Assembly: GCF_003667275.1 (NCBI RefSeq)
Contig: NZ_RCNV01000009.1
Coordinates: 1-64,000, forward strand
Origin: Mesonia aquimarina
GTDB taxonomy: Bacteria > Bacteroidota > Bacteroidia > Flavobacteriales > Flavobacteriaceae
Direction: 5' to 3'
DNA length: 64,000 nt
In this document: piece after piece, positions 84-26,393 of the stretch
Layout of the letters: each line of letters begins with the position of its first letter
Position numbering within the stretch: position 1 is the stretch's first letter
Translations under genes and position numbers: made by a program
The notes under the pieces: generated by a model
Told to the model about the DNA's origin: nothing
What the model saw: only the letters and a program-made list of their open reading frames with translations
Database searches by the model: none

Positions 84-87
84 TCAC

Positions 88-204
88 TCAACTTAAAGTC
101 CAGTTTTTTGTTGCAAGTCCATTCCACTCAATATCATTTTCAGTTAATTTAGTTTCAAAGCCTTCTTGATAAATTACATCATCTATTTTTTTTAAAATAT
201 CCAT
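88..204 (-). pseudogene. 5' remnant of a cassette gene, truncated by the IS3-type element
   Basis: The frame starts at ATG 202-204 (minus strand) and encodes 38 residues (begins MDILKKIDDVIY) before a stop at 88-90 that lies in or beside IS3 end sequence. Upstream of its start is the cassette-type core TACTGGCAAC followed by the recombination-site start AACGG. It is therefore the surviving start of one more array cassette. The product cannot be identified from what is left. The array probably continued further left before the insertion. Confidence 0.5.
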
Positions 205-227
205 TTTTTTCAAATTACTGGCAACGG

Positions 228-1887
228 CAGTCTGTCTCAAAACTACCTAATTTGTTTTTAAAAATAATTGAAATTAGGGGTAAAGCCAAAATTAGCATTA
301 ATTTTTGTTTGCTTTTGTATCAATGCCTTAAAAGTTCGTTTTAGTCTTATATGTGCTTTTATAAGCTTTCTGATGTTAAAAAAGAGGTTTAATAGCAGTT
401 GCATCAGCTCTATTTTACTATTGAACAATCTCCTTAAATTATAGGCTAGGGCAATAAGTCCAAAGTCGGCAGAAGCTGCTTTGATACCTTTTTTTGTTAT
501 GATATGATCAAATCCCCATTGGCGCTTGATGGTACCATAGGGATGCTCTACCAAGGCTTGCCTTTTTTTGTAAAGTTCCCCGCTTTGTGCAATCCGCTTA
601 GCATTCTGTTTAATATTTTGAGTGTATTGGCTACGCTGAATGACCTTTCCATTGATTTTTGAGGAGGTACAATTCTGGCGCACCGGGCATTGCTTGCAGG
701 CCTTGGTTTTGTATTGTTTGAAGGAATAGTTTCTGGCTCTGTACCAAGAGCCGTTGCTCGATAAGGTATTCCCCTGTGGGCAGTTATAAGTATCATCATC
801 AGTATTATAAACAAAATTTTCAGCATTGTATTTAGGATCTGGTGCCTGGCTTTTACGGCCAATTGCTGGGATGGCAACCAGGGTATTGATGTTTAGGCTA
901 TCTGCAATATAGAATTCGCTTCCGGTATGGTATCCTTTGTCATAAAGGGCAGTAAAGGTATTGTTTCTTAAAATAGTTTTTGCCCTTCTGAGCATTAGCC
1001 CCATTGCTTTTTTATCATTCTGATTAGTAATTTTGAAATCAATAAGGAATTTATTTTGTGCGTCTACCGTTGTCTGAGCTGTATAGCATACCTCGGTAAC
1101 GGTACCGCGTACAATTTGATGCCGGCAATCGGGATCTGAAGTCGATCGTTGTGGGTTTTCAGAAGAAGTATCTTCATCAAGTTGTTTTTGTATCGCCTTG
1201 TATTTGTTTTTTTGCTGTTTGCGTGCTTTTATTTGATCTTCAATTTCTTCAGTTTTTTTCTGATCTCCATCCGCTGTGGCCAGTTGTTGGTTATGCTCTT
1301 CGAGTTTTTTATCGATATACTCTAAGTGGCGCTTTATTTTCTTTTTATTATAGTTGTTTTTCTTACTGTTCTGCGCCCTTAGCTTTGTAGAATCCCCTGC
1401 AATGAGGTTTCCCCCGATCAGGTTGAAGTTACGAGCAATAGCCACACTTTGACGGAATACCTTACGGATTGCTTTGGGATTTTCTTTTCTAAACCGGGCA
1501 ATGGTATTATGGTCGGGTTTTAGGTTTTTGATCAGCCAGATCACTTCTATATTCCGGTGGCACTCTTTCTCCAGCCTTCGTGAAGAGCGCATACGGTTCA
1601 TATAACCATAGATAAAGAGCTTGAGCAGGTCTGCCGGGTGATAGGGCGGTCTTCCCTGAGTGGCTATGGTCTGAAAGCCCATTTTTGATAAATCGAGCAA
1701 GTTTACAAATTGATCGATGAGCCGTACGCTATTCTCCCCAGGGATCATATCATCCAAACAGGTTGCGTAAAGGCTGAGCTGTTCCCGGTCTTGTCCTTGT
1801 TGATATTCCATACCTTAAAGATAAACATACCAAAGATCATATCCTGAAAAATGATCGGTAAAGATGGCATGGTTTTGAGACAGTCTG
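228..1887 (-). mobile_element. IS1182-like insertion sequence (type A) inside a cassette recombination site
   Basis: The 1660 bp element is bounded by 16-bp perfect terminal inverted repeats, CAGTCTGTCTCAAAAC at 228-243 and its complement at 1872-1887. It is flanked by the 4-bp direct repeat ACGG (224-227 and 1888-1891). Removing the element and one ACGG restores GGCAACGGTCTTGTATA, the standard left end of the cassette recombination sites. It carries one transposase gene on the minus strand. Confidence 0.9.
258..1811 (-). CDS. IS1182-family transposase (type A)
   Basis: The 517-residue DDE transposase fills the element at 228-1887. The N-terminal part (about 15-125) matches the DUF772-type transposase domain, including a DHNTIARFR segment. 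Likely catalytic acids are Asp140 (IAGDST), an Asp in ALYDKGYHTG near residue 290, and a Glu in VEHPYGTIK near residue 425. A Cys cluster (CKQCPVRQNC) sits between the last two, as in the C-terminal DDE_Tnp_1_6 domain. The frame appears intact, so the element may still be active. It shares only family-level similarity with the two type-B copies in this window. Confidence 0.88.
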   Translation of the reverse strand: MEYQQGQDREQLSLYATCLDDMIPGENSVRLIDQFVNLLDLSKMGFQTIATQGRPPYHPADLLKLFIYGYMNRMRSSRRLEKECHRNIEVIWLIKNLKPDHNTIARFRKENPKAIRKVFRQSVAIARNFNLIGGNLIAGDSTKLRAQNSKKNNYNKKKIKRHLEYIDKKLEEHNQQLATADGDQKKTEEIEDQIKARKQQKNKYKAIQKQLDEDTSSENPQRSTSDPDCRHQIVRGTVTEVCYTAQTTVDAQNKFLIDFKITNQNDKKAMGLMLRRAKTILRNNTFTALYDKGYHTGSEFYIADSLNINTLVAIPAIGRKSQAPDPKYNAENFVYNTDDDTYNCPQGNTLSSNGSWYRARNYSFKQYKTKACKQCPVRQNCTSSKINGKVIQRSQYTQNIKQNAKRIAQSGELYKKRQALVEHPYGTIKRQWGFDHIITKKGIKAASADFGLIALAYNLRRLFNSKIELMQLLLNLFFNIRKLIKAHIRLKRTFKALIQKQTKINANFGFTPNFNYF

Positions 1888-2011
1888 ACGGTCTTGTATA
1901 TGGTTTGTTGCGTGTGTTTTACATGTAAGTTACTAAATAATTACCGAATAGAAAATACGAGAGTATTTTCGTAAGTAAACCAGAACAAAGCAATAAATTA
2001 TATACGGTGTT
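1888..2011 (-). repeat. attC-like cassette recombination site S0 (type-A IS inserted at its left end)
   Basis: This is the right part of a site whose left AAC lies at 223-225, before the IS. It runs from ACGGTCTTGTATATGG to TATACGGTGTT, with arms pairing around TATA and an internal GAAAATAC/GTATTTTC hairpin. It belongs to the same subtype as S1, S6 and S14, which share CCGAATAGAAAATC..GATTTTCGTAAG. The next cassette core, GTTGCCACCC, starts at 2009. Confidence 0.75.
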
Positions 2012-2040
2012 GCCACCCGTTTTTATTCAGATTATTAATT

Positions 2041-2535: not shown

Positions 2536-2565
2536 TTTTCAGAGTGTGATTAGTAAATGGGTGGC

Positions 2566-2687
2566 AACGGTTTTGTGTATGATTAGTGGCGTGTTTAAGC
2601 ACCTAATTTAGTAAATAATTACCGAATAGAAAATCCGTGAGGATTTTCGTAAGTAGGCGAGAACTAGCCATTAATTATACACGTTGT
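2566..2687 (-). repeat. attC-like site S1, split from its core by a type-B IS
   Basis: The site runs from AACGGTTTTGTGTATGATTAG to TTAATTATACACGTTGT. The outer arms GTGTATGATTAGTGGC and GCCATTAATTATACAC pair, and an inner hairpin is formed by GAAAATCC and GGATTTTC. The type-B IS follows at 2688, so the site resumes with the duplicated CGTTGT and core GTTCTACGCA at 4379-4392. Confidence 0.8.
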
Positions 2688-4378
2688 GCTTGTTGCACAA
2701 TTTACTAAAAAAGATTAATTTCATGGTATGCAAGGAAAAAAAGTATATCAAGAGCAGTTATTCAACAGTTTTCAGTTGAGTGAACGGGTACCGGCCACTA
2801 ATTTCTACCGCCGATTGAAAGAAGCCTTAAACTTAGATTTTCTCTATGATCTTACTCGAGGTTTTTACGGCAGCAGCGGTCAAAAGAGTATAGATCCTGT
2901 AGTGTTCTTTAAACTCTGTCTGGTGGGCTATTTAGAGAATATCATCAGCGACCGCAAGCTTATCGAACATAGCAGTATGCGATTGGATATTCTCTATTTC
3001 ATTGGTTATGATATTGATGAGGAGCTACCTTGGCACTCCACTATCAGTCGAACACGACAATTATTTCCGGAAGATGTGTTTGAGTCTGTATTTACCAAAG
3101 TCTTCAGCCTTTGCGTAGAAGCCGGGATGGTGAGTGGCCACACTCAAGCTATTGATAGTGCCCCGGTAAAGGCCAACGCTTCGATGGACACTCTGGAACT
3201 AAAAGTACCTGAAGAGGAGTTAGAATCTCATTTGCACAGAGTTCGTCATATTAGTGCGATGGATAAAGATCAGCCATTTCGTAAGAGTAAGGGTGATAAA
3301 TCAGACAAAGGTCAACGCAGTATAACGGCTAATGAACAGGAACTCCAGGCGATCTCTAGTCGCAACAAGCGTTGGAGCAAAGATCAGGATCAGCGACCGG
3401 GGTCAGGAAATAAAGGCAGTAAGTATACCAGCAATAAAACGCATTACAGTCCTACCGATCCTGATGCCCGTATCAGTGTCAAGCCCGGCAAGGCCAGAAA
3501 GCTCAATTACCTGAGTCAGCTAAGTGTAGATACCGGTCATCACGTGATTACCGACATTAGGGCTTACCACGCTGATGGTAAAGACAATCAGCAATTGCCT
3601 GATATAGTTAAGCGCGTAAAGCGCCGCCTGTGGAAGCAGGGATTAGTTTGGGAGAATTGTGTAGCTGACACCGGATATAGCTCAGGAGAGAACTACGCAT
3701 TTTTAGAGGCACAGGGTCTTAAAAGTTTTATACCTGCTCACGGTACTTTTAAAGGCGGTCGTGGTGGATTTAGATATGTTGAAGACCAAGATCATTACCT
3801 GTGCCCACAAGGTAAGATCATCCCCTTTACCAAGGAGTTTAACGATTACAGAACCGGAACTCGAAAGAAAGAATACCGCTGTCGCAAGCACGTGTGTATC
3901 GATTGTCCTATACGCAGCAGCTGTCTAGGAAAAAGCGCACAGGAAAAGAAGTTCAGCGTTACCTATTACCGAGCAGAATATCAGCGCAACATCGCCCGGG
4001 TAGAAAGCCCACAGGGCAGATATATGAAAAGCAAACGGCAAAGCACCGTAGAACCTGTTTTTGGTACACTCACTCAATTTGTTGGTCTGCGTAAAGTAAA
4101 CACTATAGGCTTAAGACAAGCTAACAAGTGTATGCAGCTCTCAGCTATAGCCTACAACCTCAAAAAATACCTCAAGTTCACTCAAAACCGGGTGAAAAGT
4201 GGAGCAGGAATGTTCGCCTTGTTTTTTAAAGTTCACAATGACCTTAAATCGGGAGTATACGTCATTTTAAAAACACTTCATTCTTCTAATTTGCAAAGGA
4301 TATAAAAACAAAAAACCTCCTAAAAGCGGTTTAAATAAGTGAGATTTTCTAAGAATTAAAGGCTTGTGCAACGGTTAC
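2688..4378 (+). mobile_element. IS1182-like insertion sequence, type B copy 1
   Basis: The 1691 bp element is nearly identical to 8017-9707. Its ends carry short inverted GTTGCACAA/TTGTGCAAC repeats, with outer bases GCTT at the left and GGTTAC at the right. The flanking 6-bp direct repeat is CGTTGT (2682-2687 and 4379-4384). The flanks of the two copies differ at one base (CGTTGT here, CATTGT at copy 2), and that base matches on both sides of each copy. This supports a true target duplication. Excision rebuilds a normal recombination-site end. Confidence 0.9.
2728..4305 (+). CDS. IS1182-family transposase, type B copy 1
   Basis: The 525-residue DDE transposase has a DUF772-like N-terminal domain (about 22-112, FYRRLKEALN through WHSTISRTRQ) and a C-terminal DDE_Tnp_1_6-like region. 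Likely catalytic residues are Asp143 (AIDSAPV), Asp314 (ADTGYSS) and Glu442 (TVEPVFG). A Cys motif (CRKHVCIDCPIRSSC) lies at 385-399. It reads on the plus strand, against the cassette genes. It differs from copy 2 at residues 321 and 345-346 (Asn and Arg-Gly here, His and Pro-Ala there). Confidence 0.9.
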   Translation: MQGKKVYQEQLFNSFQLSERVPATNFYRRLKEALNLDFLYDLTRGFYGSSGQKSIDPVVFFKLCLVGYLENIISDRKLIEHSSMRLDILYFIGYDIDEELPWHSTISRTRQLFPEDVFESVFTKVFSLCVEAGMVSGHTQAIDSAPVKANASMDTLELKVPEEELESHLHRVRHISAMDKDQPFRKSKGDKSDKGQRSITANEQELQAISSRNKRWSKDQDQRPGSGNKGSKYTSNKTHYSPTDPDARISVKPGKARKLNYLSQLSVDTGHHVITDIRAYHADGKDNQQLPDIVKRVKRRLWKQGLVWENCVADTGYSSGENYAFLEAQGLKSFIPAHGTFKGGRGGFRYVEDQDHYLCPQGKIIPFTKEFNDYRTGTRKKEYRCRKHVCIDCPIRSSCLGKSAQEKKFSVTYYRAEYQRNIARVESPQGRYMKSKRQSTVEPVFGTLTQFVGLRKVNTIGLRQANKCMQLSAIAYNLKKYLKFTQNRVKSGAGMFALFFKVHNDLKSGVYVILKTLHSSNLQRI

Positions 4379-4385: not shown

Positions 4386-5228
4386 CTACGCAGTTTTTAT
4401 TCGTTCGATTGCTTGTTTCAATTGCTCAATTTTCTTTGGTCCAAATCCGCTGATATTTTTCATTTCCTCAATGTCAATTTCCAAAACTTTTTTTGGTGTT
4501 GTGTAACCAAGTTCATAAACTTTGTCCACCATAGGAATTCCAAATTCCTGTAATTTTTCCTTAATCCATTCAATTCCGAGTTCATTTGGTTTAAGTCCGT
4601 GAAAAAATTCGTCAACAAATGGTTTATTCGATTTTCCAAACTCGTTTATCAACTCTATTTTTTCCTCGTATGTTTTTTCGTTGTCGTTTGTTATAATCTG
4701 AAACTTTGGCAAACTGTCAAAATACATTGGTTTTTTCTCAAATTCCTTTTCTATAAAGTCGTTCGCAGATATTTCAGTCCATTCGTATTCAGTTCCGCCA
4801 ATTTCATTTCGTACAGTTTCATATTCCGCAATTGAAATGATTTTATACGCATTTTCGATTTTGTCTTTTGACATATTCAAATCCAAATCAGGAACGAACT
4901 GTCGATAAAGAATTTTGTCACTCGCTTTCCAAAAAGCATCATCGTAAATTCTGTATTTTTTTTCAATTTGTGGATTGTCAGTTTGACTGTTTTCGTAACT
5001 TTTTTCCGCTCGATTGAAGGCAGTTCGTAATTTTTTAAAATCCTCTATTGTTTTTACTTCGTCAACTAATTGTTGAACAGTCGGTAAAGTTTTATTTGTT
5101 CGATTTTGAGGTTTTTTAGTCGATTTAGACTCTTTCAATTTTGGGTTATTCTTTTCTTGAATAGTTCCAATTACTCCGAAAATCACAAAAATTCCGACTA
5201 ATGCTAATATTATGTAAAAAATTGTCAA
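4386..5228 (-). CDS. Cassette gene: membrane-anchored protein with C-terminal helix-hairpin-helix
   Basis: The protein has 280 residues. An N-terminal hydrophobic helix (about 2-22) anchors it. A charged linker follows, then a mixed middle region, and the last 60 residues contain two HhH-like units (KVYELGYTTPKKVLEIDIEE and ISGFGPKKIEQLKQAI). HhH pairs of this kind usually bind DNA without sequence specificity, but here that is inference. The stop codon lies inside the cassette core (GTTCTACGCA, 4383-4392). The matching TGCGTAGAAC is at 5260-5269, just upstream of the start. Confidence 0.75.
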   Translation of the reverse strand: MTIFYIILALVGIFVIFGVIGTIQEKNNPKLKESKSTKKPQNRTNKTLPTVQQLVDEVKTIEDFKKLRTAFNRAEKSYENSQTDNPQIEKKYRIYDDAFWKASDKILYRQFVPDLDLNMSKDKIENAYKIISIAEYETVRNEIGGTEYEWTEISANDFIEKEFEKKPMYFDSLPKFQIITNDNEKTYEEKIELINEFGKSNKPFVDEFFHGLKPNELGIEWIKEKLQEFGIPMVDKVYELGYTTPKKVLEIDIEEMKNISGFGPKKIEQLKQAIERIKTA

Positions 5229-5266
5229 TTTATTCTCTGGGTTTAATGGTTAGTCAAATTGCGTAG

Positions 5267-5391
5267 AACGGTCTTGTATAATTACCCAGCTAAGGGAATT
5301 TGAGAACTAAAGATAGTAAAAAGAACTGACTTTGACGCGTGAGCGTCTGTGTCCGCAGGACACAAAGCCTTAGTTGGAATTATACGTTGTT
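5267..5391 (-). repeat. attC-like site S2
   Basis: The site lies between two cassette genes. AACGGTCTTGTATAATTACC at the left pairs with GGAATTATACGTTGTT at the right, and CTAAGG pairs with CCTTAG. An inner GTGTCCGCAGGACAC hairpin is shared with S8, and S4 has a close variant. The next core is GTTGGCAAC at 5389-5397. Confidence 0.8.
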
Positions 5392-5402
5392 GGCAACAGG
5401 TT

Positions 5403-5894: not shown

Positions 5895-5911
5895 TTTTTC
5901 AACTTGTTGCC

Positions 5912-6036
5912 AACGTTCCGCGGCTATGCGCCGGGCGGGGCTTTTACCCGGAATTGTTCTTTTGAAAACGAGCATTTCTCGCATCCGTAATCTGTCAACC
6001 GAAGACGGGTTTCCCGCCTGGCGCATAGCCGCTGTT
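5912..6036 (-). repeat. attC-like site S3, GC-rich variant
   Basis: The arms GCGGCTATGCGCC (left) and GGCGCATAGCCGC (right) are perfectly complementary over 13 bp. Only the terminal AAC and GTT and the overall layout match the other sites. The base composition is far more GC-rich than the neighbouring sites and genes, suggesting that this cassette came from a different donor. The next core is GTTGGGCG at 6034-6041. Confidence 0.75.
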
Positions 6037-6056
6037 GGGCGTTCGTATTTTTTATC

Positions 6057-7013
6057 CTACATTTTTTCATTTTTTACCCCTGTCTTGTCTAAGGCTTCTC
6101 TTAATCCTTTAGCCAATTTTTCTACGGGTCCAACACCCCAATAATGTAGAAAGAAAATTCTTGGGTTTTCGTGAACCATATGATTATGAAGAGCAACTAC
6201 TTCAATATCATTTTCAATCAAAGCCTTTATTACTGGGGCTACTTCATCAGCAAGCATCGTAAAATCCCCTGCTACCGCTGCCTTTTCATTTGTTCCTTGC
6301 CAACTTGCCCAAGTATTAAAACCTAAAAATGTACTAACTGGTGCACCGTGTTCTTTTAAATTCACATCTGGCCGACCGATAGTGATTTTATATACTCCTT
6401 TATTCATAGTTCCGCTATATCCCAAAATGCTATCAATCAACTTTGTGTCAAGAGTATTTTGCACTGTTGAAATAGTTGCACTTGATGGATTAGCACCTCT
6501 TATTTCAGTTACTTTATCAAAAACAGCTTTGACACTTTTAGCTAATTTTTTTTCATCGCCCATTCCCCCAATATGCATATACATCACATCAGGCTCATTT
6601 CGGACAAAGTGATTGTGAATTGCTGTTATTGTTAACCCTTGTTTTATTATTTCTTGCTGTACTGGTTTTAAGTCTTTTTCCGTAACAACAATATCTCCCA
6701 TAACCATAGGTTTTCCCGAAGTTGGGGCGAATGCAGCCCAGCTTCCTAATCCCATAGGAGGAATGATTTTGAAACCATCGACCATTACATTCAAGTCATT
6801 TTGAGGAACTGTAACTTTGAATTGTCCGTCTTTTTCTTTTCCTTCCATCCCAAACACCGATTTTAAAGATTCAATATCAAGCTCCTTTAATTCATCGTTA
6901 TTTTCCAAAAGCTTTCCAGTCGATTCTTTTGAATCGTTTTTCTTTGTAGATTGTTCGCAACCAAAAGCAATTAAAGAGGTTACTACTATTAAATAAATGC
7001 ATACTTTTTTCAT
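6057..7013 (-). CDS. Cassette gene: DUF1259 (LppY/LpqO-like) lipoprotein
   Basis: The 318-residue protein begins with a lipoprotein signal (MKKVCIYLIVVTSLIAFGC, Cys19). It contains two copies of the DUF1259 fold. Each has a TITAIHNHFV or EVVALHNHMV strand followed by a YMHIGGMG or FLHYWGVG segment; the first copy spans about residues 50-165 and the second about 195-310. LppY/LpqO proteins are exported and of unknown biochemical role. The paired HNH motifs could bind metal, which is inference. Cassette ends are GTTGGGCG (6034-6041) and CGCCCAAC (7056-7063). Confidence 0.85.
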   Translation of the reverse strand: MKKVCIYLIVVTSLIAFGCEQSTKKNDSKESTGKLLENNDELKELDIESLKSVFGMEGKEKDGQFKVTVPQNDLNVMVDGFKIIPPMGLGSWAAFAPTSGKPMVMGDIVVTEKDLKPVQQEIIKQGLTITAIHNHFVRNEPDVMYMHIGGMGDEKKLAKSVKAVFDKVTEIRGANPSSATISTVQNTLDTKLIDSILGYSGTMNKGVYKITIGRPDVNLKEHGAPVSTFLGFNTWASWQGTNEKAAVAGDFTMLADEVAPVIKALIENDIEVVALHNHMVHENPRIFFLHYWGVGPVEKLAKGLREALDKTGVKNEKM

Positions 7014-7060
7014 AATTCAGTTTTTTTGTTAAAATTTCAGTTCTTTTCAATATGACGCCC

Positions 7061-7184
7061 AACGGTCTTGTATAACAATCAGTTGCGGATTGTTTAAAAA
7101 CTAAGATAGCTAAAATCCCTGACTTTTATGCTTGCGCTGTTGTGTCCGCAGAATACAAAGCCGCAATTGTTGTTATACGTTGTT
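7061..7184 (-). repeat. attC-like site S4
   Basis: The outer arms TATAACAA and TTGTTATA and inner arms TTGCGG and CCGCAA pair. The site is nearly identical to S8 (12030-12153), so two unrelated cassettes carry the same site subtype. The 16 bases at 7170-7185 (TTGTTATACGTTGTTG) are also found at the start of CRISPR spacer 3. The next core is GTTGGCAAC at 7182-7190. Confidence 0.85.
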
Positions 7185-7195
7185 GGCAACTGGCT

Positions 7196-7513
7196 TTATT
7201 TTGTTTTTTTGATTTTTGTTGGGTTTTGTCGAGTATCGAAAACGTCAGCAATTTTTATAAATCCGTTTTGTTCATCAACCGAATATATCACTTTGTAGTT
7301 TTTGAAAACCAAATAACGATATTGAATTTCTCTATTTTTAAGTAATTCTTCTTCTTGTCCAATAAAGGACGCTTTGATTAGTTTTTCCGATTCTTTGATT
7401 ATTCCAGTAACAATTTTAGTAGCAACTTTTAAACTAGCTTTCTTTTCGTAATATTCATAAATTTCGTCAAGTTGAGTTTCCGAAAAGTCTGACCAAATAA
7501 TTTTAAAATTCAT
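7196..7513 (-). CDS. Cassette gene: RelE/ParE-family toxin
   Basis: The 105-residue protein has the ParE/RelE layout. It has an N-terminal strand (FKIIWSDFSETQLDEIYEYY), a basic helix, and C-terminal strands (YRYLVFKNYKVIYSVDEQN, IKIADVFDTRQNP). ParE proteins act on gyrase and RelE proteins on ribosome-bound mRNA, and the sequence alone does not decide between them. Its start overlaps the stop of the upstream antitoxin gene by one base, indicating translational coupling. Toxin-antitoxin cassettes are a known way of stabilising large integron arrays. Confidence 0.85.
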   Translation of the reverse strand: MNFKIIWSDFSETQLDEIYEYYEKKASLKVATKIVTGIIKESEKLIKASFIGQEEELLKNREIQYRYLVFKNYKVIYSVDEQNGFIKIADVFDTRQNPTKIKKTK

Positions 7514-7746
7514 TATTCGTATTTGGCTAAAAGTTCAGAACTTGTTTTAAATCGATTGTTTTTGAAATCAGATTCTGATTTGTCAATTCGTTTGTTTAAC
7601 TCATCAATGGTCATAGGCTTAAAAAGCCTTTCGTCAGAAGTATCTTTTTCCTTTTTCAATATTTTCTCAAGCTTGGAAATTGCTTCCTCGCTTTGAAGTT
7701 TTAGGAATTCTTGAATAAATTCTATTTTTCGAGCTTCTATATTCAT
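7513..7746 (-). CDS. Cassette gene: antitoxin partner of the ParE/RelE-type toxin
   Basis: The 77-residue, highly charged helical protein (LQSEEAISKLEKILKKEK, then PMTIDELNKRIDKSESDFKNN) has the shape of the short antitoxins paired with Bacteroidota ParE toxins. The C-terminal half would wrap the toxin. It is first in the pair and its stop overlaps the toxin start. The two genes share one cassette, with ends GTTGGCAAC (7182-7190) and GTTGCCAAC (7826-7834). No DNA-binding fold is obvious. Confidence 0.75.
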   Translation of the reverse strand: MNIEARKIEFIQEFLKLQSEEAISKLEKILKKEKDTSDERLFKPMTIDELNKRIDKSESDFKNNRFKTSSELLAKYE

Positions 7747-7831
7747 TTCGAGTTTCTTTTTATCAAAGATACTAAATTATCAAATTCAATCAATATCTTT
7801 CTTTGTTTAACAAATTTTTCAGCTTGTTGCC

Positions 7832-8016
7832 AACGGCTCGTATATGAAACGTAGCGTGTAAATAGACGCTAACTTTTCGGATTATACACAAGCCGAATTT
7901 TTATGTTTTGTTTTTATCTTTTCTATTTTAAAAGCCAAATTTAAAAATTTGGCGACTTTGCAAATACGCACAAACCTCTCGTAAAGCCTATATTAGCTAT
8001 GTTTTATATACATTGT
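7832..8016 (-). repeat. attC-like site S5 (long subtype), interrupted before its core by a type-B IS
   Basis: This site is about 185 bp, longer than most. It contains AACGGCTCGTATATGAAACG and an internal CCAAATTTAAAAATTTGG palindrome. It shares its middle (GTAGCGTGTAAAT, ACACAAGCCGAATTTTT, CCAAATT..AAATTTGGCG) with S11. The type-B IS is inserted at 8017, directly after CATTGT. The site end and core GTTATATGCC resume at 9708-9721. Confidence 0.78.
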
Positions 8017-10621: not shown

Positions 10622-10630
10622 ATGGCATAT

Positions 10631-10752: not shown

Positions 10753-10767
10753 CTACGCAGTTTTTAT

Positions 10768-11450: not shown

Positions 11451-11464
11451 GCCTACAGTTATTT

Positions 11465-15532: not shown

Positions 15533-15545
15533 GGCAGTTGTTTTT

Positions 15546-16748: not shown

Positions 16749-16773
16749 ATTGTGTTCTTTTTAAATAACTGCC

Positions 16774-16895: not shown

Positions 16896-16902
16896 GTAGG
16901 TA

Positions 16903-17506: not shown

Positions 17507-17556
17507 AATATTCCTTTTTATTTTTTTACTAAAGCTCAATTCAATAATACGAGCTA

Positions 17557-17569
17557 ATTCTGTAGAAAT
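17557..17569. promoter_or_regulatory. Putative response-regulator operator, copy 1
   Basis: ATTCTGTAGAAAT has a TTCT-GT-AGAA dyad. It lies 51 bp upstream of the start of the PepSY-like gene ending at 17506. The same 13 bases occur at 20851-20863 and 22836-22848, all upstream of genes in this locus. Confidence 0.6.
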
Positions 17570-17593
17570 ATGGGATTCGAATTAACCTCTACA

Positions 17594-18961: not shown

Positions 18962-18984
18962 TCCTTTGATGTGACGTTGCTTTG

Positions 18985-19707
18985 CTAGTTAATCTTTTTA
19001 GCATTTGCAAAACGCTCTGCTACATTATCCCAGTTGATGATTTCCAATATGGTGTCAACAAAATCACCTCTTTTGTTTTTATGCTTCAAATAATAAGCGT
19101 GTTCCCATACGTCTATTACCAAAATCGGGATTACGCCCCACTGGGTAAGCTTTTGATGATTTTCACACTGGAGAAGTGTGAGGGATTGTGAATAAGGTTG
19201 ATAGCCTAAAATTCCCCAACCACTGCCTTCAACACTTTTGGAAACTTTTGCGATATATGACTTGAGTTTATCAAATGAACCAAAGTCCTTTTCTATTTGC
19301 TTTAAAAGCTCTGCTTTAGGCTCAGTTTTCTTATTGACAAGGTTTGTCCAGAAAATAGAATGCAGGACATGGCTTGAAAAATGATAGGCCAGTTTTCGCG
19401 TCCATAGATCAACCATATCCATTTCACCAGTCTCAAGGTTTTTCTTGATGTTTTCCAAATCCTTATTAGCTCCATTGACCGCACCTCCGTGGTGAAATTC
19501 ATAATGCAGGTGCAGGGTTTCTTCGTCCATATGGGGTTCCAGAAACGTCTTGTTGTAGGGTAATGGTTTTTGAATGAAGTTACCATTACCATCTATCAAT
19601 TTGTCAATTCCTCCTTCATTCACACTTTGGGAGAACACACTGTTGATAGGCAGAATTGTTGCCCCTCCCAGTATTGCTGAATTTTTTAGAAAATCTTTTC
19701 TGTCCAT
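18985..19707 (-). CDS. Exported Fe/Mn superoxide dismutase
   Basis: The protein has 240 residues from the ATG at 19705-19707. The frame open to 19806 overlaps the upstream gene and is not needed. The start MDRKDFLKNSAILGGATILP looks like a Tat or Sec export signal, unusual for a mainly cytosolic family. Metal ligands are visible: His in LHLHYEFHHGGAVNGAN, His in LAYHFSSHVLHSIFW, and the Asp and His of VIDVWEHAYYLKHKN. It converts superoxide to peroxide. Whether Fe or Mn is bound cannot be told. Its place beside chrA fits chromate-generated oxidative stress. Confidence 0.88.
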   Translation of the reverse strand: MDRKDFLKNSAILGGATILPINSVFSQSVNEGGIDKLIDGNGNFIQKPLPYNKTFLEPHMDEETLHLHYEFHHGGAVNGANKDLENIKKNLETGEMDMVDLWTRKLAYHFSSHVLHSIFWTNLVNKKTEPKAELLKQIEKDFGSFDKLKSYIAKVSKSVEGSGWGILGYQPYSQSLTLLQCENHQKLTQWGVIPILVIDVWEHAYYLKHKNKRGDFVDTILEIINWDNVAERFANAKKIN

Positions 19708-19747
19708 TTTTCTATGTTTTAATTGGTTTGAAAAATTATGTTGCTCA

Positions 19748-20308
19748 TTAGAATAAAACGCCAAATTGAAATGCAAAGGTCGTTGAAGCCACATGGTCAT
19801 TTCCAAATCGAAAAAGCATGGGCATTGCCAGAAAATAGGTAACCTTTTCTTGTTTGATAATAGGCTTGTTTATAACAGCTGTGAAGCCGTACCTGCCATT
19901 GGTGTTGAATGCCAGACGTGTCAATAAATTAAAGCCTGCTATATTTCTGTAAATAACCCCAGGGTGAAATAATAAACCGCTTACTCTACTCGTACTATCG
20001 TTTACTACAATAGAGGGGACAAACTCGACACTAAATGCAATTTTTCGGCTTTGAATGAAATTGATCCCTACGGGAAAACCCACCGTGTAACTATCACGAA
20101 AATTAAATTTATGTTCGCCACCTGAGAAGGTGCTGATGGGGTGAACAACGCTGAAGTACATCTTAGTAATAGGAAAACTATTTTCTGATATGGTTTGTGG
20201 AGTTTTCGGGTTTTCTGTATCCAGTTTAGATTGTGCATTACAATCCACATTACAGTAGCATATCACTATAATGCCGAGTAGAAAGCTCCGTTTATAAATA
20301 TTCTTCAT
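19748..20308 (-). CDS. Predicted outer-membrane beta-barrel protein of unknown function
   Basis: The protein has 186 residues from Met at 20306-20308 (Met1 of the longer frame at 20323 is an alternative). It has a signal peptide to about residue 25 (LLGIIVICYCNVDCNAQ). The mature part alternates hydrophobic strands and ends in FAFQFGVLF, with the terminal Phe typical of BAM-inserted barrels. No family is recognised. It precedes the superoxide dismutase gene with a short gap, so the two may be co-transcribed. Confidence 0.68.
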   Translation of the reverse strand: MKNIYKRSFLLGIIVICYCNVDCNAQSKLDTENPKTPQTISENSFPITKMYFSVVHPISTFSGGEHKFNFRDSYTVGFPVGINFIQSRKIAFSVEFVPSIVVNDSTSRVSGLLFHPGVIYRNIAGFNLLTRLAFNTNGRYGFTAVINKPIIKQEKVTYFLAMPMLFRFGNDHVASTTFAFQFGVLF

Positions 20309-20454
20309 AATGTCTTTAATCATATTTTAGTAAGGCACATATTAAAGTACAGGATCATAAAAAGCTTTGAAATGTAAAAGCCATCAATCACTCTTTCCGG
20401 CATTTCCCAGCTCATATACCTGGTAAAAAATCAACTATACTCTTCATCGAAGTA

Positions 20455-20799
20455 TTATCGATGATCGTAATCACCGTCCGAGTGGCTTTCCTCTCTTTTG
20501 AGTACCAATTCTCCTTTTGGATTAAAATAGAGTTCAAAATAGGTCTCATCCTCATTCTCGACCTCAAGCTCATACATAGTACCCTTATTGGTCTCGACCT
20601 TTTCTACTTCCTCAATCTCCCATTTAGCGTATTGTGAATTCTTAAAGGCATCCTGTACGGCCTTAGGTAAATCAGAAAACTTAATGGTCTCCTCACTTAG
20701 CTCCTTGAAATCGGATTGGGCCATCGCTGTAAAGGTACCCCCACCAATAAACAGAAGGGAAAATAGAACAATACGAAGAAACTTCTTACTTGCGTTCAT
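20455..20799 (-). CDS. PepSY-like periplasmic protein
   Basis: The protein has 114 residues from the ATG at 20797-20799, followed by a signal peptide (FLRIVLFSLLFIGGGTFTAMA). The frame to 20820 is an alternative. The mature region has LPKAVQDAFKNSQYAKWEIE and VEKVETNKGTMYELEVEN, closely matching the protein at 17204-17506. It lies immediately downstream of the histidine kinase gene and has the operator-like motif 52 bp upstream of its start, so it probably has its own promoter. Confidence 0.82.
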   Translation of the reverse strand: MNASKKFLRIVLFSLLFIGGGTFTAMAQSDFKELSEETIKFSDLPKAVQDAFKNSQYAKWEIEEVEKVETNKGTMYELEVENEDETYFELYFNPKGELVLKREESHSDGDYDHR

Positions 20800-20850
20800 A
20801 ACATTAAAATTTAAGGTCAAACATTCAATTCACCTCAAATGTAGAGATCG

Positions 20851-20863
20851 ATTCTGTAGAAAT
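20851..20863. promoter_or_regulatory. Putative response-regulator operator, copy 2
   Basis: An exact ATTCTGTAGAAAT copy, 52 bp upstream of the PepSY-like start at 20799 and just before the kinase gene's end. Its spacing matches copy 1. Confidence 0.6.
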
Positions 20864-20872
20864 TTGGGCTAG

Positions 20873-22135
20873 TCAAAAATGAACGGTAAAAGTGTGAAGC
20901 GCATTTTTGTGACTGTAAGTTAGCTCCCAATTACTTACTTGTGATATTTTATAAGCGATAGCAAGCCCCAGCCCCCAAGATTCGGGATTATTGGAGGATT
21001 TGTAAAACCTCTGAAATAACTTTTCCTGATCTATTCGTTCATTGCTGGTGTTGGTAACAGTCAACCGTTGTTTGCTTGCTAAAACAGTGACCTGGCCATT
21101 TTTTAAATTATGCACAAAAGCATTTTTAAGCAGGTTTTGGATGAGTATTTCGGCTAAGGTATAATTACCCTGAATACTAGGATGATCCTCGATTTCTACC
21201 TCTACCTGAATGTTCAAAGCCTCCTTGTGTTCTTCAAAATATTCTAACGATCTGTGGATTATTTCTTCTACTCTGACCTCATCGGTCATCAAGAACTGCC
21301 GGTTTTCTATTTTGGAAAGGAGCAGGAGGGTTTTGTTGAGTTTTTTTATCCGTTGTGTGGACCCTATTATACTTTCTATGATGGTCGCTTGTTCTTCGGT
21401 AAGCTGAGTTTGACCAACCAGTGCCTCTAACTTCGATTGAATAATGGATAAAGGAGTCTGTAACTCATGGGAAGCATCTCCGATAAACTGCTTTTGGTTT
21501 TCAAAAACCTCCTTGTTTTTCCGAGTCAGTTCGGTCATCACATTATTTAATAGCTGAAATTCTTCAATTTTGGAATTTGGGAATACTGGTGTATTTGCAT
21601 TGACAAGATTATAATTTTTGAGCTTGTCAAGCATAGTATAAAAGGGCTGCCATATTCTTCGAGAAAGCATTCTGTTTGAGAGGTAAAAACAGAAAACAAG
21701 TCCAAAAAATAGCCCTCCTAGCGTAATAGCAATCGTACCAATGATTTCAGTTGCTTCCAGGTGAGGCTTCACAATTTCCAGTTTGTAATAGCTGTCGTTT
21801 AATTCCACAAATGTTATCAGCTTCCGGTACTCATCTAGTTCGGCATCTATCGGTTCATAGATCAACGTGTCGGCATAGCTTTCTTTTCCGTCTTGAAACG
21901 TATTTATATCAATAGGGTAAAATGTAAAATCGTCCAGAGGGTAATCCTTCGCTATGGATATTTCCGGGTGCTTTTCGAGATAGGCAAGCAAGTTCATCTT
22001 ACGGTTATTCAAAACCTCATCTACGTTTTGAAGTACATTCCAGCTTAGCACCAGATAAAACAAGGTCGAGAATATCCCAAACAGTAAAAGGAATGCGAAT
22101 AATTGGATACGGGTCGTATAAGAAAGCAGCTTCAT
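20873..22135 (-). CDS. Two-component sensor histidine kinase
   Basis: The 420-residue inner-membrane kinase has two hydrophobic segments (about 10-32 and 130-152) enclosing a sensor region of about 100 residues. The H-box is ASHELQTPLS (phospho-acceptor His223), the N-box is LIQNLLKNAFVHN, and the G-box is WGLGLAIAY. Its start overlaps the stop of the response-regulator gene by 4 bp, so the two are co-translated. The input signal is unknown; neighbours suggest metal or oxidative stress. Confidence 0.93.
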   Translation of the reverse strand: MKLLSYTTRIQLFAFLLLFGIFSTLFYLVLSWNVLQNVDEVLNNRKMNLLAYLEKHPEISIAKDYPLDDFTFYPIDINTFQDGKESYADTLIYEPIDAELDEYRKLITFVELNDSYYKLEIVKPHLEATEIIGTIAITLGGLFFGLVFCFYLSNRMLSRRIWQPFYTMLDKLKNYNLVNANTPVFPNSKIEEFQLLNNVMTELTRKNKEVFENQKQFIGDASHELQTPLSIIQSKLEALVGQTQLTEEQATIIESIIGSTQRIKKLNKTLLLLSKIENRQFLMTDEVRVEEIIHRSLEYFEEHKEALNIQVEVEIEDHPSIQGNYTLAEILIQNLLKNAFVHNLKNGQVTVLASKQRLTVTNTSNERIDQEKLFQRFYKSSNNPESWGLGLAIAYKISQVSNWELTYSHKNALHTFTVHF

Positions 22136-22815
22136 ATTGTTTTTATTTGGTATCCCACACCGTAAATATTGGTTATTTCCACGTTGGCACCTGCTTCCTT
22201 TAGCTTGCGTCTCAAATTTCTGATTTGTGAAAACAAAAAATCAAAACTCTGTACCTCATCTACGTAATCGCCCCAGATATATTCTGCCAAAGAAACCTTG
22301 GTGATCACCCGTTTGTGATTGCTGATCAAGTGGGTAAGGATAGCATATTCTTTCTTTGTTAGAGAAAGTGGGCTTTCGAGATTATCAATTCCAACTATGT
22401 ACTGATCTGGTTCTATTACCAGATTAGCATAGTGAACCAATCTATTTGTCTTGAATTGTTTTCTCCTTATAATTGCCTTTATACGGGCATTCAGCTCTGA
22501 AAAGTAAAATGGTTTAGTCAGGTAATCATCAGCTCCTAACCCCAAGCCTTTTAATTTATCGTCCAGGGAATTACGGGCAGAAAGGATGATTACCCCATCA
22601 GTTTTATCTTCCTTATGGAGAATTTCGAGCAGGTCAAAACCACTGCCATCCGGGAGGTTTATATCCAGAATGATACAGTCATAATCGTACAGATTAATGC
22701 GCTCTATACTTTCCCGAAAATTGCCAGCAGTATCACAGAAATAACCTTCATCCTTGGCAAAATCTTGTAGGCTTTTTAGCATTTCCGTTTCGTCTTCTAT
22801 GATGAGCAGTTTCAT
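22132..22815 (-). CDS. OmpR/PhoB-family response regulator
   Basis: The protein has 227 residues from the ATG at 22813-22815 (MKLLIIEDE). The frame to 22857 adds an unlikely leader. The receiver domain has acidic IIED, phospho-acceptor Asp51 (ILDINLPDGSGF) and Lys101 (LTKPF). The C-terminal winged helix has LTKKEYAILTHLISNHKRVI and FDFLFSQIRNLRRKL. It probably binds the TTCTgtAGAA dyads found before this gene and before both PepSY-like genes. That link is inferred from position. Confidence 0.93.
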   Translation of the reverse strand: MKLLIIEDETEMLKSLQDFAKDEGYFCDTAGNFRESIERINLYDYDCIILDINLPDGSGFDLLEILHKEDKTDGVIILSARNSLDDKLKGLGLGADDYLTKPFYFSELNARIKAIIRRKQFKTNRLVHYANLVIEPDQYIVGIDNLESPLSLTKKEYAILTHLISNHKRVITKVSLAEYIWGDYVDEVQSFDFLFSQIRNLRRKLKEAGANVEITNIYGVGYQIKTI

Positions 22816-22835
22816 GGATACAAAGTACAGAAATA

Positions 22836-22848
22836 ATTCTGTAGAAAT
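22836..22848. promoter_or_regulatory. Putative response-regulator operator, copy 3 (autoregulatory)
   Basis: An exact ATTCTGTAGAAAT copy begins 21 bp upstream of the response-regulator start. It is preceded by a partial AGAAAT repeat, so it may be a double site. Confidence 0.55.
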
Positions 22849-23120
22849 GTTGCACAATGGTTTATAGAAATCTTTGGTGTAACTGATACAATAAGTTTTT
22901 GAGAAAAGGATTTTTTGTAGTCCATCTATTATCTGTCAATTTGGGGTTTTGTTTTTGGGAGGAAACACGCTTGTCTTTTATCGAGTTTTACTTTCATTTA
23001 TTGTAATTTCCAGTCCAATCGGAGGCAAAATTAGGCTCTTTTGGTTTTTTAGCGTTGACTTCGTGTGTCGACAAAAAATCAAATGTGCCTAATGTGCGGT
23101 GGGTTTTTTGCATTACCTAC

Positions 23121-23245
23121 AACGGTCTCGTATAACCGTCAGTTACGGGATTAAAGTTAATAATTTTCGGTTAAGAACTGGCGTTAGCAATTCCGAGTGG
23201 ATTCGGACGTAGTCGAATCCGCCGTAATAGCGGTTATACATTGTT
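23121..23245 (-). repeat. attC-like site S13
   Basis: Same subtype as S7: TATAACCGTCAGTTACGG at the left, CCGTAATAGCGGTTATAC at the right, and an inner GGATTCGG..CGAATCC hairpin. It closes the oversized cassette, whose core complement TACCTACAAC is at 23114-23123. The next core is GTTGTGGTTA at 23243-23252. Confidence 0.85.
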
Positions 23246-23257
23246 GTGGTTAGTTTT

Positions 23258-23701: not shown

Positions 23702-23710
23702 ATTAACCAC

Positions 23711-23834
23711 AACGGTTTTGTATAAGATTAGTTGCGTGGGTTAAGCAACTAATTTAGCAAATACAAATCGAATAGAAAATCCGCGAGGATTTTCGTAAGC
23801 AGGCTTGCACTAGCAATTAATTTTATACGTTGTT
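23711..23834 (-). repeat. attC-like site S14
   Basis: Same subtype as S1 and S6, with AACGGTTTTGTATAAGATTAG at the left and TTAATTTTATACGTTGTT at the right, and the shared CGAATAGAAAATCC..GGATTTTCGTAAG hairpin. The next core is GTTGTAAAAC at 23832-23841. Confidence 0.82.
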
Positions 23835-23845
23835 GTAAAACGTTT

Positions 23846-24451: not shown

Positions 24452-24460
24452 ATGTTTTAC

Positions 24461-24583
24461 AACGGTTAGTATATGAAAAGTAGGCGTTTTTGAAGCTCGA
24501 ACCTTTCAGTTACGCACAAACTTTGATACGAGCCAAAGCCCTTGAGTTTATTACTATCTCGCCTATTTTTTATATACATTGTT
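24461..24583 (-). repeat. attC-like site S15
   Basis: The arms TATATGAAAAGTAGGCG and CGCCTATTTTTTATATAC pair. The inner part has ACTTTGATACGAGCCAAAG. This is the site nearest the recombinase gene. The next core is GTTAGCTGC at 24581-24589. Confidence 0.8.
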
Positions 24584-24597
24584 AGCTGCTGGCTTTT

Positions 24598-25164
24598 TTA
24601 TTCAATTTCAATATCTTTTGTTTCTTGGTCTAACTTTCCTTTAAAATTTGGAACTGGTCTCTCTTCTTTCTCTAACTCAGTTTCGACAATTCCGTTCTCT
24701 TTAATGTCTTTAATCAACCATTCCATTTCCATAATTTCTTTGCGTTGAGCTTTAATAATGTCGTCTGCAAGTTTTCGAACTCTAACGTCTTTTATTTTTG
24801 CTCTTTCGCTCGTCAATATCGCAATTGAATGATGTGGAATCATTCCTTCCATATAATCGGTATCAGTTACAGTTACCTGACTCCTTACCAACCAAATTGC
24901 TCCAATTATCATCAAAGCTCCCAATCCAAATATTGCAGTGTTAGCTTTTTTACTCTTATACATATTAAGCATATAGAGAAGCATAATGATTATCATTGAG
25001 CCACCCATAATAATGGTCATAAATAATCGAGTTTCACTAAACCAAAAGTGGTCGACTATTTGATAAGAATGAGTGTACATTAAAAAAAACATTGCAATCA
25101 TTGAAGTCGCAATCATTGCAAAAAATTTCCCGTATTTCTTTTTACTGTTATGTTCGTTTTCCAT
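24598..25164 (-). CDS. Cassette gene: DUF305-domain membrane protein
   Basis: The protein has 188 residues. Three hydrophobic segments (about 12-32, 45-66, 74-93) precede a C-terminal DUF305-like ferritin-fold segment with YMEGMIPHHSIAILTSERA and IIKAQRKEIMEMEWLI. DUF305 proteins often go with copper handling, and the HH and Met pattern could bind metal; this is inference. It is the cassette adjacent to the recombinase, so in an integron-like model it would be the latest acquisition. Cassette ends are GTTAGCTGC (24581-24589) and GCAGCTAAC (25200-25208). Confidence 0.82.
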   Translation of the reverse strand: MENEHNSKKKYGKFFAMIATSMIAMFFLMYTHSYQIVDHFWFSETRLFMTIIMGGSMIIIMLLYMLNMYKSKKANTAIFGLGALMIIGAIWLVRSQVTVTDTDYMEGMIPHHSIAILTSERAKIKDVRVRKLADDIIKAQRKEIMEMEWLIKDIKENGIVETELEKEERPVPNFKGKLDQETKDIEIE

Positions 25165-25199
25165 TTTGTTTAAGTTTTGAGTTATTTTTTATTCAGCTT

Positions 25200-25241
25200 G
25201 CAGCTAACATGTGCATAAACGCTATAGCGTTTATTTACAAT
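25200..25241. other. attI-like junction between recombinase gene and first cassette
   Basis: On the minus strand the recombinase stop is followed by 33 bp, then GTTAGCTGC, the first cassette core. The 33 bp contain the perfect 20-bp palindrome ATAAACGCTATAGCGTTTAT (25215-25234). No attC-type palindrome is present here, as expected for a primary insertion site. Alternatively the palindrome is only a recombinase-binding or terminator element. Confidence 0.55.
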
Positions 25242-26393
25242 TTATCGATTATCCAAATATAGTGAATCTAATGGATTTTTTATTTTTTTTAATTGATGAT
25301 TAGCGACGTGGGTATAAATTTCAGTTGTTTTTGTGGTCTTATGCCCTAAAAGTTGTTGAATATATCTTAAATCTACCCCATCTTCCAATAAATGTGTTGC
25401 AAAACTATGCCTTAGCATATGCGGGCTTACTTTTTGAGAAATTCCGGCACGTGATGCTGAACGTTTGACAATGGTAGCCACGCTTGTAGCACTATATTGA
25501 TTGCCTGGCTTACCTTCAAAAAGAAACTTTTTTGGTTTCCACTCGCGATAGTATAATCTTAGATTAATAAGCGTCTTTTCTGATAAAAGTGTGAATCTTT
25601 CAGTATTCCCCTTCGTATCTCTTATGTTAATTAAAAAGCGTTTACTTTGAATATCATTTAATTCAAGGTTTAAAAGCTCAGATCTCCTTAAGCCGGCGCT
25701 ATACAATAATTCAATTATACATAAGTGCTTAATATTATTGATTTGAGCAAGCATCAATTTTATATCGTTTTTACTAAGTACTTTAGGTAACTTTTTCTGT
25801 TTTCTAGGTCTTTCCAATTCATAAAATCGATGAGGCATGCCTAGTACAATTTCATAGTAAAATTTAATCGCATTGATATTCTGGTTAAGATAGGAAGATG
25901 ACTTTCCTTCTCGGATAAGTTTTTGTAGGTAACGTCTTATATCTTGTTCATCCAAATGATCTACGTTACTAGAGGAATAATAGGACATAAACTTTTCAAA
26001 ACAACTGATATAGGACTTGGCAGTATTAAGTGAATATCCTTTTAATTCAAGTTTGTGCAAAAATGAAGGCGGACATCGATACTTAGAGTTAGAGTCTGAA
26101 TCAAGGTAAGCCTGATAACTAAACTTTCGGGAGGAAGCAGAGATAGGGCTGCTCTTGAAAAACTTGGAAGTATCTATCCAGGCTTTACCTTTAAAAACTT
26201 TAAAAATTAGTTTTAAATTCTCTTTGGAATTGAAAACATATCCCATCCCAAATTCACTAGACCATTTATAAAATGGAATATTTCTGCATAATTTTTCAAT
26301 CCTTTTATCGTGTTGATGCCTTATCCCTATACAAGCTCGTCCTTCTATGAGAAGGTGAGAAATAATTATTACCTTTTTAGAATTCTTGATCAT
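25242..26393 (-). CDS. Tyrosine recombinase, candidate integrase of the cassette array
   Basis: The protein has 383 residues. Residues about 15-78 form an N-terminal module common in Bacteroidota integrases (IRHQHDKRIEKLCRNIPFYKW, then GKAWIDTSKF). A SAM-like core-binding domain follows (105-200). The catalytic set is complete: Arg236 (AGLRRSEL), Lys261, His325 and Arg328 (PHMLRHSF), His351 (LLGHKT), and Tyr360 (TEIYTHV). The tail KIKNPLDSL resembles the IntI C-terminus, but the IntI-specific insertion before the HxxR box is absent. It is read towards the cassettes. Its action on the array is inferred from position. Confidence 0.85.
   Translation of the reverse strand: MIKNSKKVIIISHLLIEGRACIGIRHQHDKRIEKLCRNIPFYKWSSEFGMGYVFNSKENLKLIFKVFKGKAWIDTSKFFKSSPISASSRKFSYQAYLDSDSNSKYRCPPSFLHKLELKGYSLNTAKSYISCFEKFMSYYSSSNVDHLDEQDIRRYLQKLIREGKSSSYLNQNINAIKFYYEIVLGMPHRFYELERPRKQKKLPKVLSKNDIKLMLAQINNIKHLCIIELLYSAGLRRSELLNLELNDIQSKRFLINIRDTKGNTERFTLLSEKTLINLRLYYREWKPKKFLFEGKPGNQYSATSVATIVKRSASRAGISQKVSPHMLRHSFATHLLEDGVDLRYIQQLLGHKTTKTTEIYTHVANHQLKKIKNPLDSLYLDNR

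Follow-up and report, generated by a model that had tools for sequence, protein, structure and literature searches.

The window analysed here, the first 64 kb (positions 1-64,000) of contig C25 from the 3.28-Mb draft genome of Mesonia aquimarina (G000), carries an array of gene cassettes beside a gene for a tyrosine recombinase (TR). Our analysis indicates that this array is very probably a sedentary integron-type platform, run by a TR of the Xer/XerA branch that is not the integron integrase IntI, and we have high confidence that the system works like an integron. At the level of sequence, our comparisons establish the unit of exchange, its GTT/AAC boundary, its orientation, the insertion point at an attI-like site and the turnover of cassettes between congeneric species.

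The array (positions ~217-25,205) comprises 16 complete units, delimited by the attI-like site and by 16 palindromic sites that all point the same way; a 17th unit is truncated by the contig start. On the minus strand, which carries the TR gene and all the cassette genes, the TR gene is followed by the attI-like site and then by the cassettes, divided by sites S16 down to S1 (Table 1). The sites (1883-24587) were defined by hand, with the flanks of the insertion joined for S1, S2 and S6. A covariance model (R1) built from 12 of them recovered all 16, trivially so for the 12 builders; S1, S2, S6 and S12 were not in the model. Both approaches bear out an earlier note on this DNA, which had reported at least 16 complete units, palindromes in the same orientation and a TR at one end. 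The note had also described the units as holding one or two genes; the unit at ~16.9-23.1 kb holds seven. Three genes of the array (258-1811, 2728-4305 and 8057-9634) had been misjudged: they are transposases of IS1182-family elements located in site cores. Many cassette genes have no Pfam match; the recognisable cargo consists of a ParE toxin with its partner and of SIR2-like, PF07485, DUF305 and aspartyl-protease-like proteins.

The sites measure 130-134 nt in 14 cases and 194 nt in the other two, with 4 nt beyond each core included; on the gene strand they start with AACA and end with CGTT. As a correction to the earlier note, the telling pairing joins the two ends of one cassette and is not confined to the palindrome. 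In 16 of 16 window units the cassette's own ends are complementary over 9-10 bp (mean 9.75 bp), a value reached by none of 100,000 shuffles, while the matching of the arms inside one site (outside AAC/GTT) has a mean run of only 3.9 nt, core included. Pairing of each cassette's own ends is the prediction of a circular intermediate closed at one site. Outside G000, 223 of 251 distinct cassettes from 46 loci pair over at least 5 nt beyond the core (shuffles: mean 7.5, maximum 15, n=1000). Among all cassettes collected, 242 of 273 pair over at least 5 nt across the cassette, and pairing within the site was found in only 13 of 361 sites. At the end of the pairing run, 7 nt beyond GTT, the cassette start has A in 99% and the cassette end C in 83% of cases (n=262), and the pairing box is therefore 10 bp. 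The canonical integron core consensus is RYYYAAC / GTTRRRY, and GTTRRRY fits just 15 of 261 cassette starts; this test is soft, because the sites that the model picked up beside a true IntI of the same phylum deviate from GTTRRRY too. A crude pattern scan for canonical attC sites at nine IntI genes, which gave one candidate per strand at one locus, was dropped as uninformative.

For the pairing analysis, cassettes were limited to 150-2500 nt, and 361 of 385 sites had both cores. The sites comprised 137 of 153 and 54 of 67 from two scans, all 178 at TR loci, and the 16 from the window. The 16 left unused from the first scan were two from the overlap of L124 and L071, eight opposite-strand echoes, four partial or weak matches and two full-length sites that were overlooked (L118:1-131 and L124:19758-19912); the 13 from the second were ten echoes and three marginal matches at IntI loci. 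A majority-strand figure of 356 of 358 sites was computed after removing echoes and is not used as evidence. A separate observation concerns Rufibacter (L202, 11439-20011), where the sites beside a TR of the same group are mostly much shorter, ~67 nt.

The sites also carry a signature of strand-specific folding. The strand opposite the genes (bottom strand) is predicted to fold more stably in 14 of the 16 window sites. RNAalifold applied to the bottom-strand alignment of the window sites gave 15 pairs, 11 of them with pair-keeping changes on both sides, and the top-strand alignment gave no pairs (the two alignments were built separately and differ). For 57 sites outside the window (one per locus, though some genomes gave several loci), 11 pairs were obtained, ten of them with two-sided pair-keeping changes. 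At two of these pairs the bottom strand has G-U in most sites (54 and 47 of the 57), which makes them A-C mismatches on the top strand. The bottom strand of attC sites is marked by extrahelical bases; by analogy, the G-U wobbles may mark the bottom strand here by another device. Tandem cassettes, each with a 3' site predicted to fold in an attC-like manner, are in this respect present as in integrons. An Rfam search of the window returned CRISPR repeats only, with no match for the sites.

The cassette as an exchange unit with a crossover in the GTT core can be recognised by comparing duplicates. We found 40 cassette pairs more than 97% identical at different places, belonging to six families in two genomes. 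The identity spans the cassette's own 3' site and ends 0-4 nt from its AAC in 39 of the 40 pairs. On the 5' side the identity breaks off 4-6 nt past the AAC start in 27 pairs and 11-62 nt past it in the other 13, where the greater length could reflect chance likeness of neighbouring sites. The earlier note had proposed comparing strains for gain and loss of cassettes; a comparison of congeneric species revealed turnover. The TRs of the congeners G461 and G455 are 97% and 96% identical to that of the window, and a third copy is broken (TR 82-89%, DNA 80%). DNA homology with G461 and G455 runs across the TR gene and the divergent gene next to it as far as GTT 25206-25208. BLAST placed the end points at 25205 (G455), 25206 (the third, broken copy) and 25181 (G461), the G461 alignment diverging after GTTA despite the latter figure. 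Beyond the GTT, the matches are to sites, a piece of an insertion element and one 712-nt stretch at 74%, and the cassette genes differ; ~1.9 and 2.7 kb of array are left on two of the contigs, and ~12.7 kb were read on the third. The chromosomal flank 27562-29169 is also present in G461, at 82%, so the two genomes carry different cassettes at one and the same locus.

The place at which this homology ends coincides with an attI-like site beside the integrase gene. In the window, the alignment with the three congeneric loci splits directly after GTT 25206-25208. Of 46 loci tested for it, 44 have the complementary start of a first cassette behind the TR (33 exact, seven with one mismatch, four with two; loci without a usable downstream site were skipped), the two where it was not found being L088 and L103, and in 39 of the 44 it lies 26-152 nt from the TR stop. 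In the subgroup of the window TR, the crossover is immediately preceded by a palindrome whose centre is variable and whose symmetry is largely kept. The motif TAnnTTTG, the Bacteroidetes -7 box, occurs forward in 14 of the 44 attI regions and in reverse in two (shuffled mean 1.5); these counts are only suggestive of a cassette promoter (Pc) reading into the array. On the other side of the TR gene lies a divergent gene for a zinc-finger-like protein, which gave 31 tblastn matches among 114 loci, 29 of them divergent and within 300 nt of the TR start. Its match to PF09889 (5.2e-5, 23.6 bits) is below the cut-off of 26.8.

The earlier note had named palindromes scattered without linkage to the recombinase as the outcome fatal to its idea. 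Instead, R1 found 178 sites around 53 loci of TR relatives and one around 20 control loci, 18 of which were centred on Xer-like paralogues (named XerC/XerD from the tree) and two on arbitrary stretches (L127, L141). The 53 loci are those with matches of ~1e-40 or better; partial matches (G018, G043, G048, G050:C18) were excluded. At 31 of them (class A) sites lie downstream of the TR, 150 of 151 being oriented for cassettes reading with the TR, and at eight (class B) they lie upstream only, with the TR divergent as in the classical layout. Sites are present in each of the 47 genomes that encode an array-type TR (best match <1e-40), and the five site-less genomes all lack such a TR (Fisher p 2.4e-4); the test is only indicative, because the site-less genomes are small and the 1e-40 line was drawn after the table had been seen. 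On a wider scale, R1 matched in 55 of 60 Flavobacteriaceae genomes, drawn from 59 genera; in a sample of 395 genomes from across the phylum at least 151 had a match, including 31 of the 41 family genomes listed there. Named relatives of the TR have sites at 20 of 46 loci, mostly in Bacteroidota (among them Winogradskyella ursingii, Seonamhaeicola aphaedonensis, Algibacter onchidii, Zunongwangia mangrovi, Flavobacterium aciduliphilum and Algoriphagus ornithinivorans), and more distant relatives, nearly all outside Bacteroidota, gave a match at one of 34 loci. G000 itself encodes a second TR, of another subgroup, with two adjoining sites (C22), and G014 carries at least 71 sites over four stretches, 80 kb in total. 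Sites thus cluster beside TR relatives, although some clusters, including some in G000, lie away from any TR.

The recombinase itself has the catalytic residues R236, H325, R328 and Y360. It scores 234.8 bits against the NCBIfam model XerA_Arch (cut-off 220), is below the cut-offs of both XerC and XerD, and reaches 192 bits, split in two pieces, against the integron integrase model TIGR02249 (cut-off 265). The spacing from Arg-I to His-II is 131 residues in nine of nine IntI proteins of the same phylum, 89 in the window TR, 89-90 in 33 of 33 class A array TRs, 84-93 in ten class B TRs and 93-104 in 20 Xer controls. Passages of PMC9668308 describe the extra IntI domain as unique and necessary for integron recombination. 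This spacing indicates that the array TRs lack the IntI-specific domain; judged by that defining feature, the TR does not qualify as IntI, and it is not a member of the IntI-defined family. The closest solved structures by sequence and fold are those of Xer/XerA and IntI4; in sequence, PDB 4a8e and 5hxy rank among the best matches. In trees, the Xer-like paralogues found in the same family group apart from the array TRs, and by this grouping and the XerC/XerD models the TR is not a XerC/XerD housekeeping recombinase either. Its extra N-terminal domain was predicted with a mean pLDDT (predicted local distance difference test) of 87, and the best seven structural matches are all to the N-terminal part of archaeal XPB (Z 6.0-6.7), the damage-recognition domain; the resemblance, a weak one, is thus to domains that bind distorted DNA. 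Pfam HARP was matched by one of eight TR N-termini (E 0.0014, 18.6 bits, below the cut-off of 25), and a profile of the domain gave no convincing sequence match in the PDB. Among the TR relatives, those of Alkalitalea, Anaerophaga and a Bacteroidetes metagenome-assembled genome (L221, L223, L224) are 675-718 aa long and show an extended N-terminal part as well as hints of a second SAM-like domain.

What is the origin of such a recombinase? It and IntI might be diverged sisters in a single integron lineage, the IntI domain having been gained later on the side of IntI or lost here. We give this reading an even chance; it concerns origin and is compatible with a platform run by a TR that is not IntI. 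The cassette logic and the GTT crossover are the same, and a joint clade of array TRs and IntI was not rejected (p-AU, approximately unbiased test, 0.66); the tree constrained to this clade outscored the quick free one by 12.5 log units. The quick free tree of 105 proteins (from which L018, L019, L223 and roughly every other class A row were omitted) nevertheless separates them: 43 array-linked TRs form one group together with one Spirochaetota relative (SH-aLRT, Shimodaira-Hasegawa-like approximate likelihood ratio test, 91), and IntI (100) joins XerA-like proteins of archaea and the candidate phyla radiation (96 and 93), with modest support. In a first tree, L018, the TR of G000 with a single weak upstream site, stood beside IntI on a long branch. 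Separate invention is possible, if less probable: a XerA-branch TR may have gained cassette capture independently, with the HARP/XPB-like domain and the zinc-finger partner taking the place of the IntI domain in recognising folded single-stranded sites, and may have become the principal platform for cassettes in Flavobacteriaceae and related Bacteroidota. The earlier proposal of a separate or strongly diverged capture system therefore holds as regards a recombinase of its own without the IntI-specific domain, but an independent origin is no more than a possibility, since the clade with IntI was not rejected.

Could the array instead be an ordinary integron, or a cluster of attC sites lacking an integron integrase (CALIN), moved by a lost or distant IntI, with the TR as a bystander? 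Among 395 genomes of the phylum, 105 do encode a true IntI, and R1 gave marginal matches at three places beside IntI genes (L189, E 0.02 and 0.05; L191, 0.07). However, G000 has no IntI above the cut-off, and none of the 108 genomes with an IntI match belongs to the Flavobacteriaceae, of which at least 41 were sampled. R1 sites adjoin the TR group, with none at E <=0.01 in nine IntI loci of 13-20 kb, and the attI-like site and the start of the array lie directly behind the TR, where homology with the congeners ends. We consider this explanation very improbable. The same holds for shuffling of genes by homologous recombination between the sites, which we judge hardly credible: the sites are alike enough in places, and in some duplicate pairs the likeness reaches up to 62 nt into the adjacent site, but most boundaries fall at the 3-nt GTT/AAC core and are not scattered through the 130-nt site, and such recombination does not predict complementarity of the cassette ends. 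Least probable of all are dispersed palindromic repeats, similar to miniature inverted-repeat transposable elements or terminators, that merely lie between genes, for although the sites are numerous and some are distant from any TR, each duplicated unit carries one whole site, and static repeats and terminators were rejected on the pairing of cassette ends across the gene.

Several observations weigh against a platform run by this TR. As many as 35 of the 40 duplicate pairs come from ten copies of one cassette, and among 273 cassettes one was shared across genomes, between two families, at 87% identity over 92% and with no flank match. Pairing extends over less than 5 nt in 28 of the 251 cassettes outside G000, and the bottom strand is the less stable one in two of the 16 window sites. 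Sites downstream are missing at 22 of the 53 TR loci. Eight of these have upstream sites instead; among the 14 remaining, no more than 310 nt of contig follow the TR at eight, and at the six with room (L079, L082, L089, L095, L108, L114) R1 found no site. Sites are still carried by eight of the 13 genomes without an array-type TR, and the five site-less genomes are all small (1.5-2.6 Mb). In the phylum sample, ten of at least 41 family genomes have no site, all from one genus (few candidates were scored per genome). As for the N-terminal domain, its structural likeness is weak, with SMARCAL1 HARP at Z 4.2 and unrelated initiation factors of the eIF1 kind at 4.1-5.8; all matches are below the safe level (Foldseek E 0.075 and worse), and two of 33 class A and at least four of ten class B TRs are too short to have the domain.

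The likeness to known IntI integrons (class 1 and sedentary chromosomal ones; IntI4, PDB 2a3v) extends to the constant orientation of the array, the GTT crossover, the attI site by the integrase, the 3' site of each cassette with self-complementary cassette ends and a bottom-strand folding signature, and a cargo of small unknown genes with a toxin-antitoxin pair. The integron pairing box measures 7 bp, against 10 bp here, and the cassette starts here seldom match GTTRRRY. The array TR has no IntI-specific domain and does not reach the IntI cut-off; it carries an additional N-terminal domain, has a zinc-finger-like protein encoded next to it, and in most site-bearing loci is co-directional with the cassettes. 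Co-directionality is shared with reverse-integrase integrons of the Treponema denticola type, which encode IntI. With archaeal XerA and bacterial XerC-XerD (PDB 4a8e, 5hxy) the TR shares the catalytic core and, in the case of XerA_Arch, a score above the cut-off, but array TRs are linked to cassette arrays, whereas the 20 control loci gave one site match.

Taking these findings together with what is known of IntI and attC, a mechanism can be proposed. A cassette is a gene with its own 3' site; the TR would excise and insert cassettes in circular form. It would cut the folded bottom strand within the GTT core and join it to attI, where insertion would be preferred, in the manner of IntI acting on attC. 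Both catalysis of the exchange by this TR and the folded bottom strand as its substrate appear probable. More speculatively, the N-terminal domain might recognise folded DNA and so replace the missing IntI domain, and the divergent zinc-finger-like protein might help or regulate.

In the open literature we found no description of this system, a weak negative in that preprints were not covered and few subscription papers were. In passages of PMC2426708 and PMC9668308, IntI with its unique domain serves to define and select integron integrases. A family-wide system without this domain would therefore tend to be missed. The IntI-less arrangement recurs widely in the phylum and may represent a large, little-noticed route of gene exchange. 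If this is true, it becomes testable which parts of an integrase are needed for recombining folded DNA, and the arrays open up a large reservoir of small, unknown genes to study.

The features of the array are collected in Table 1. The seven-gene unit encodes a response regulator, a histidine kinase, a PepSY-like protein, an unknown protein, an Fe/Mn superoxide dismutase, a chromate transporter and a second PepSY-like protein; at ~6 kb it is of unusual size for a cassette, yet its ends still pair.

Table 1. Features of the cassette array and the adjoining recombinase locus, from the recombinase outwards (coordinates of the window).
Feature	Position	Strand	Remarks
Divergent zinc-finger-like (treble-clef-like) protein, 125 aa	26471..26848	+	recurrent TR neighbour
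TR, 383 aa, presumed array integrase	25242..26393	-	residues ~1-75 extra N-terminal domain; 110-371 core-binding and catalytic
TAnnTTTG promoter-like motif	25254..25261	-	points into array; within last TR codons
attI-like insertion site	25206..25234	-	crossover GTT 25206-25208; 20-bp palindrome 25215-25234
First cassette gene, 188 aa	24598..25164	-	DUF305
Site S16 (attC-like)	24457..24587	-	hand-defined, covariance model
Cassette gene, 201 aa	23846..24451	-	no Pfam match
Site S15	23707..23838	-	hand-defined, covariance model
Cassette gene, 150 aa	23258..23710	-	no Pfam match
Site S14	23117..23249	-	hand-defined, covariance model
Seven-gene unit between S14 and S13	16900..23116	-	ends pair over 10 bp
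Site S13	16770..16899	-	hand-defined, covariance model
Cassette gene	15546..16748	-	aspartyl-protease-like
Site S12, long form	15343..15536	-	hand-defined, covariance model
Cassette gene, 429 aa	14025..15314	-	
Site S11	13883..14013	-	hand-defined, covariance model
Cassette gene	12951..13877	-	CarboxypepD_reg-like (below cut-off)
Site S10	12812..12943	-	hand-defined, covariance model
Cassette gene, 196 aa	12193..12783	-	
Site S9	12026..12157	-	hand-defined, covariance model
Cassette gene, 188 aa	11465..12031	-	
Site S8	11321..11454	-	hand-defined, covariance model
Cassette gene, 176 aa	10768..11298	-	
Site S7	10627..10756	-	hand-defined, covariance model
Cassette gene	9713..10621	-	SIR2-like; PADLOC ThsA match 4e-10
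IS1182-family element, IS-A copy 2	8026..9704	+	within S6 core
Site S6, long form	7828..8021	-	split by IS-A; hand-defined, covariance model
Two-gene cassette	7196..7746	-	ParE toxin and upstream 77-aa partner
Site S5	7057..7188	-	hand-defined, covariance model
Cassette gene	6057..7013	-	PF07485 (DUF1529/DUF1259)
Site S4	5908..6040	-	hand-defined, covariance model
Cassette gene, <=207 aa	5403..6026	-	mechanical start of the open reading frame falls within S4
Site S3	5263..5395	-	hand-defined, covariance model
Cassette gene	4386..5228	-	helix-hairpin-helix-like (below cut-off)
IS1182-family element, IS-A copy 1	2697..4375	+	within S2 core
Site S2	2562..2692	-	split by IS-A; hand-defined, covariance model
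Cassette gene, 164 aa	2041..2535	-	
Site S1	1883..2015	-	split by IS-B, remaining core ~217-224; hand-defined, covariance model
IS1182-family element IS-B	225..1885	-	within AAC core of S1

The IS1182-family insertion sequences form two lineages, with remnants, and have relatives on contigs C9, C18, C10, C22, C24, C11, C1 and C20 of the same genome. The ends that were examined are located in site-like cores. The left ends of IS-A are preceded by TTG (four of five places) or an AATG core, and its right ends have TGTT or GTGTT within ~10 nt after them; the left ends of IS-B read NNAA|CGG in every case. The elements look specialised on the cassette sites. IS1111-attC elements are insertion sequences with the same kind of specialisation, from which those found here differ in belonging to the IS1182 family.

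Outside the array, the window contains a CRISPR array at 43078-47147, with 53 repeat matches to RF01363 (Rfam). At 27690-28085, two GC-rich inverted words, noticed by eye, surround a non-coding stretch upstream of a large outer-membrane-receptor-like gene.

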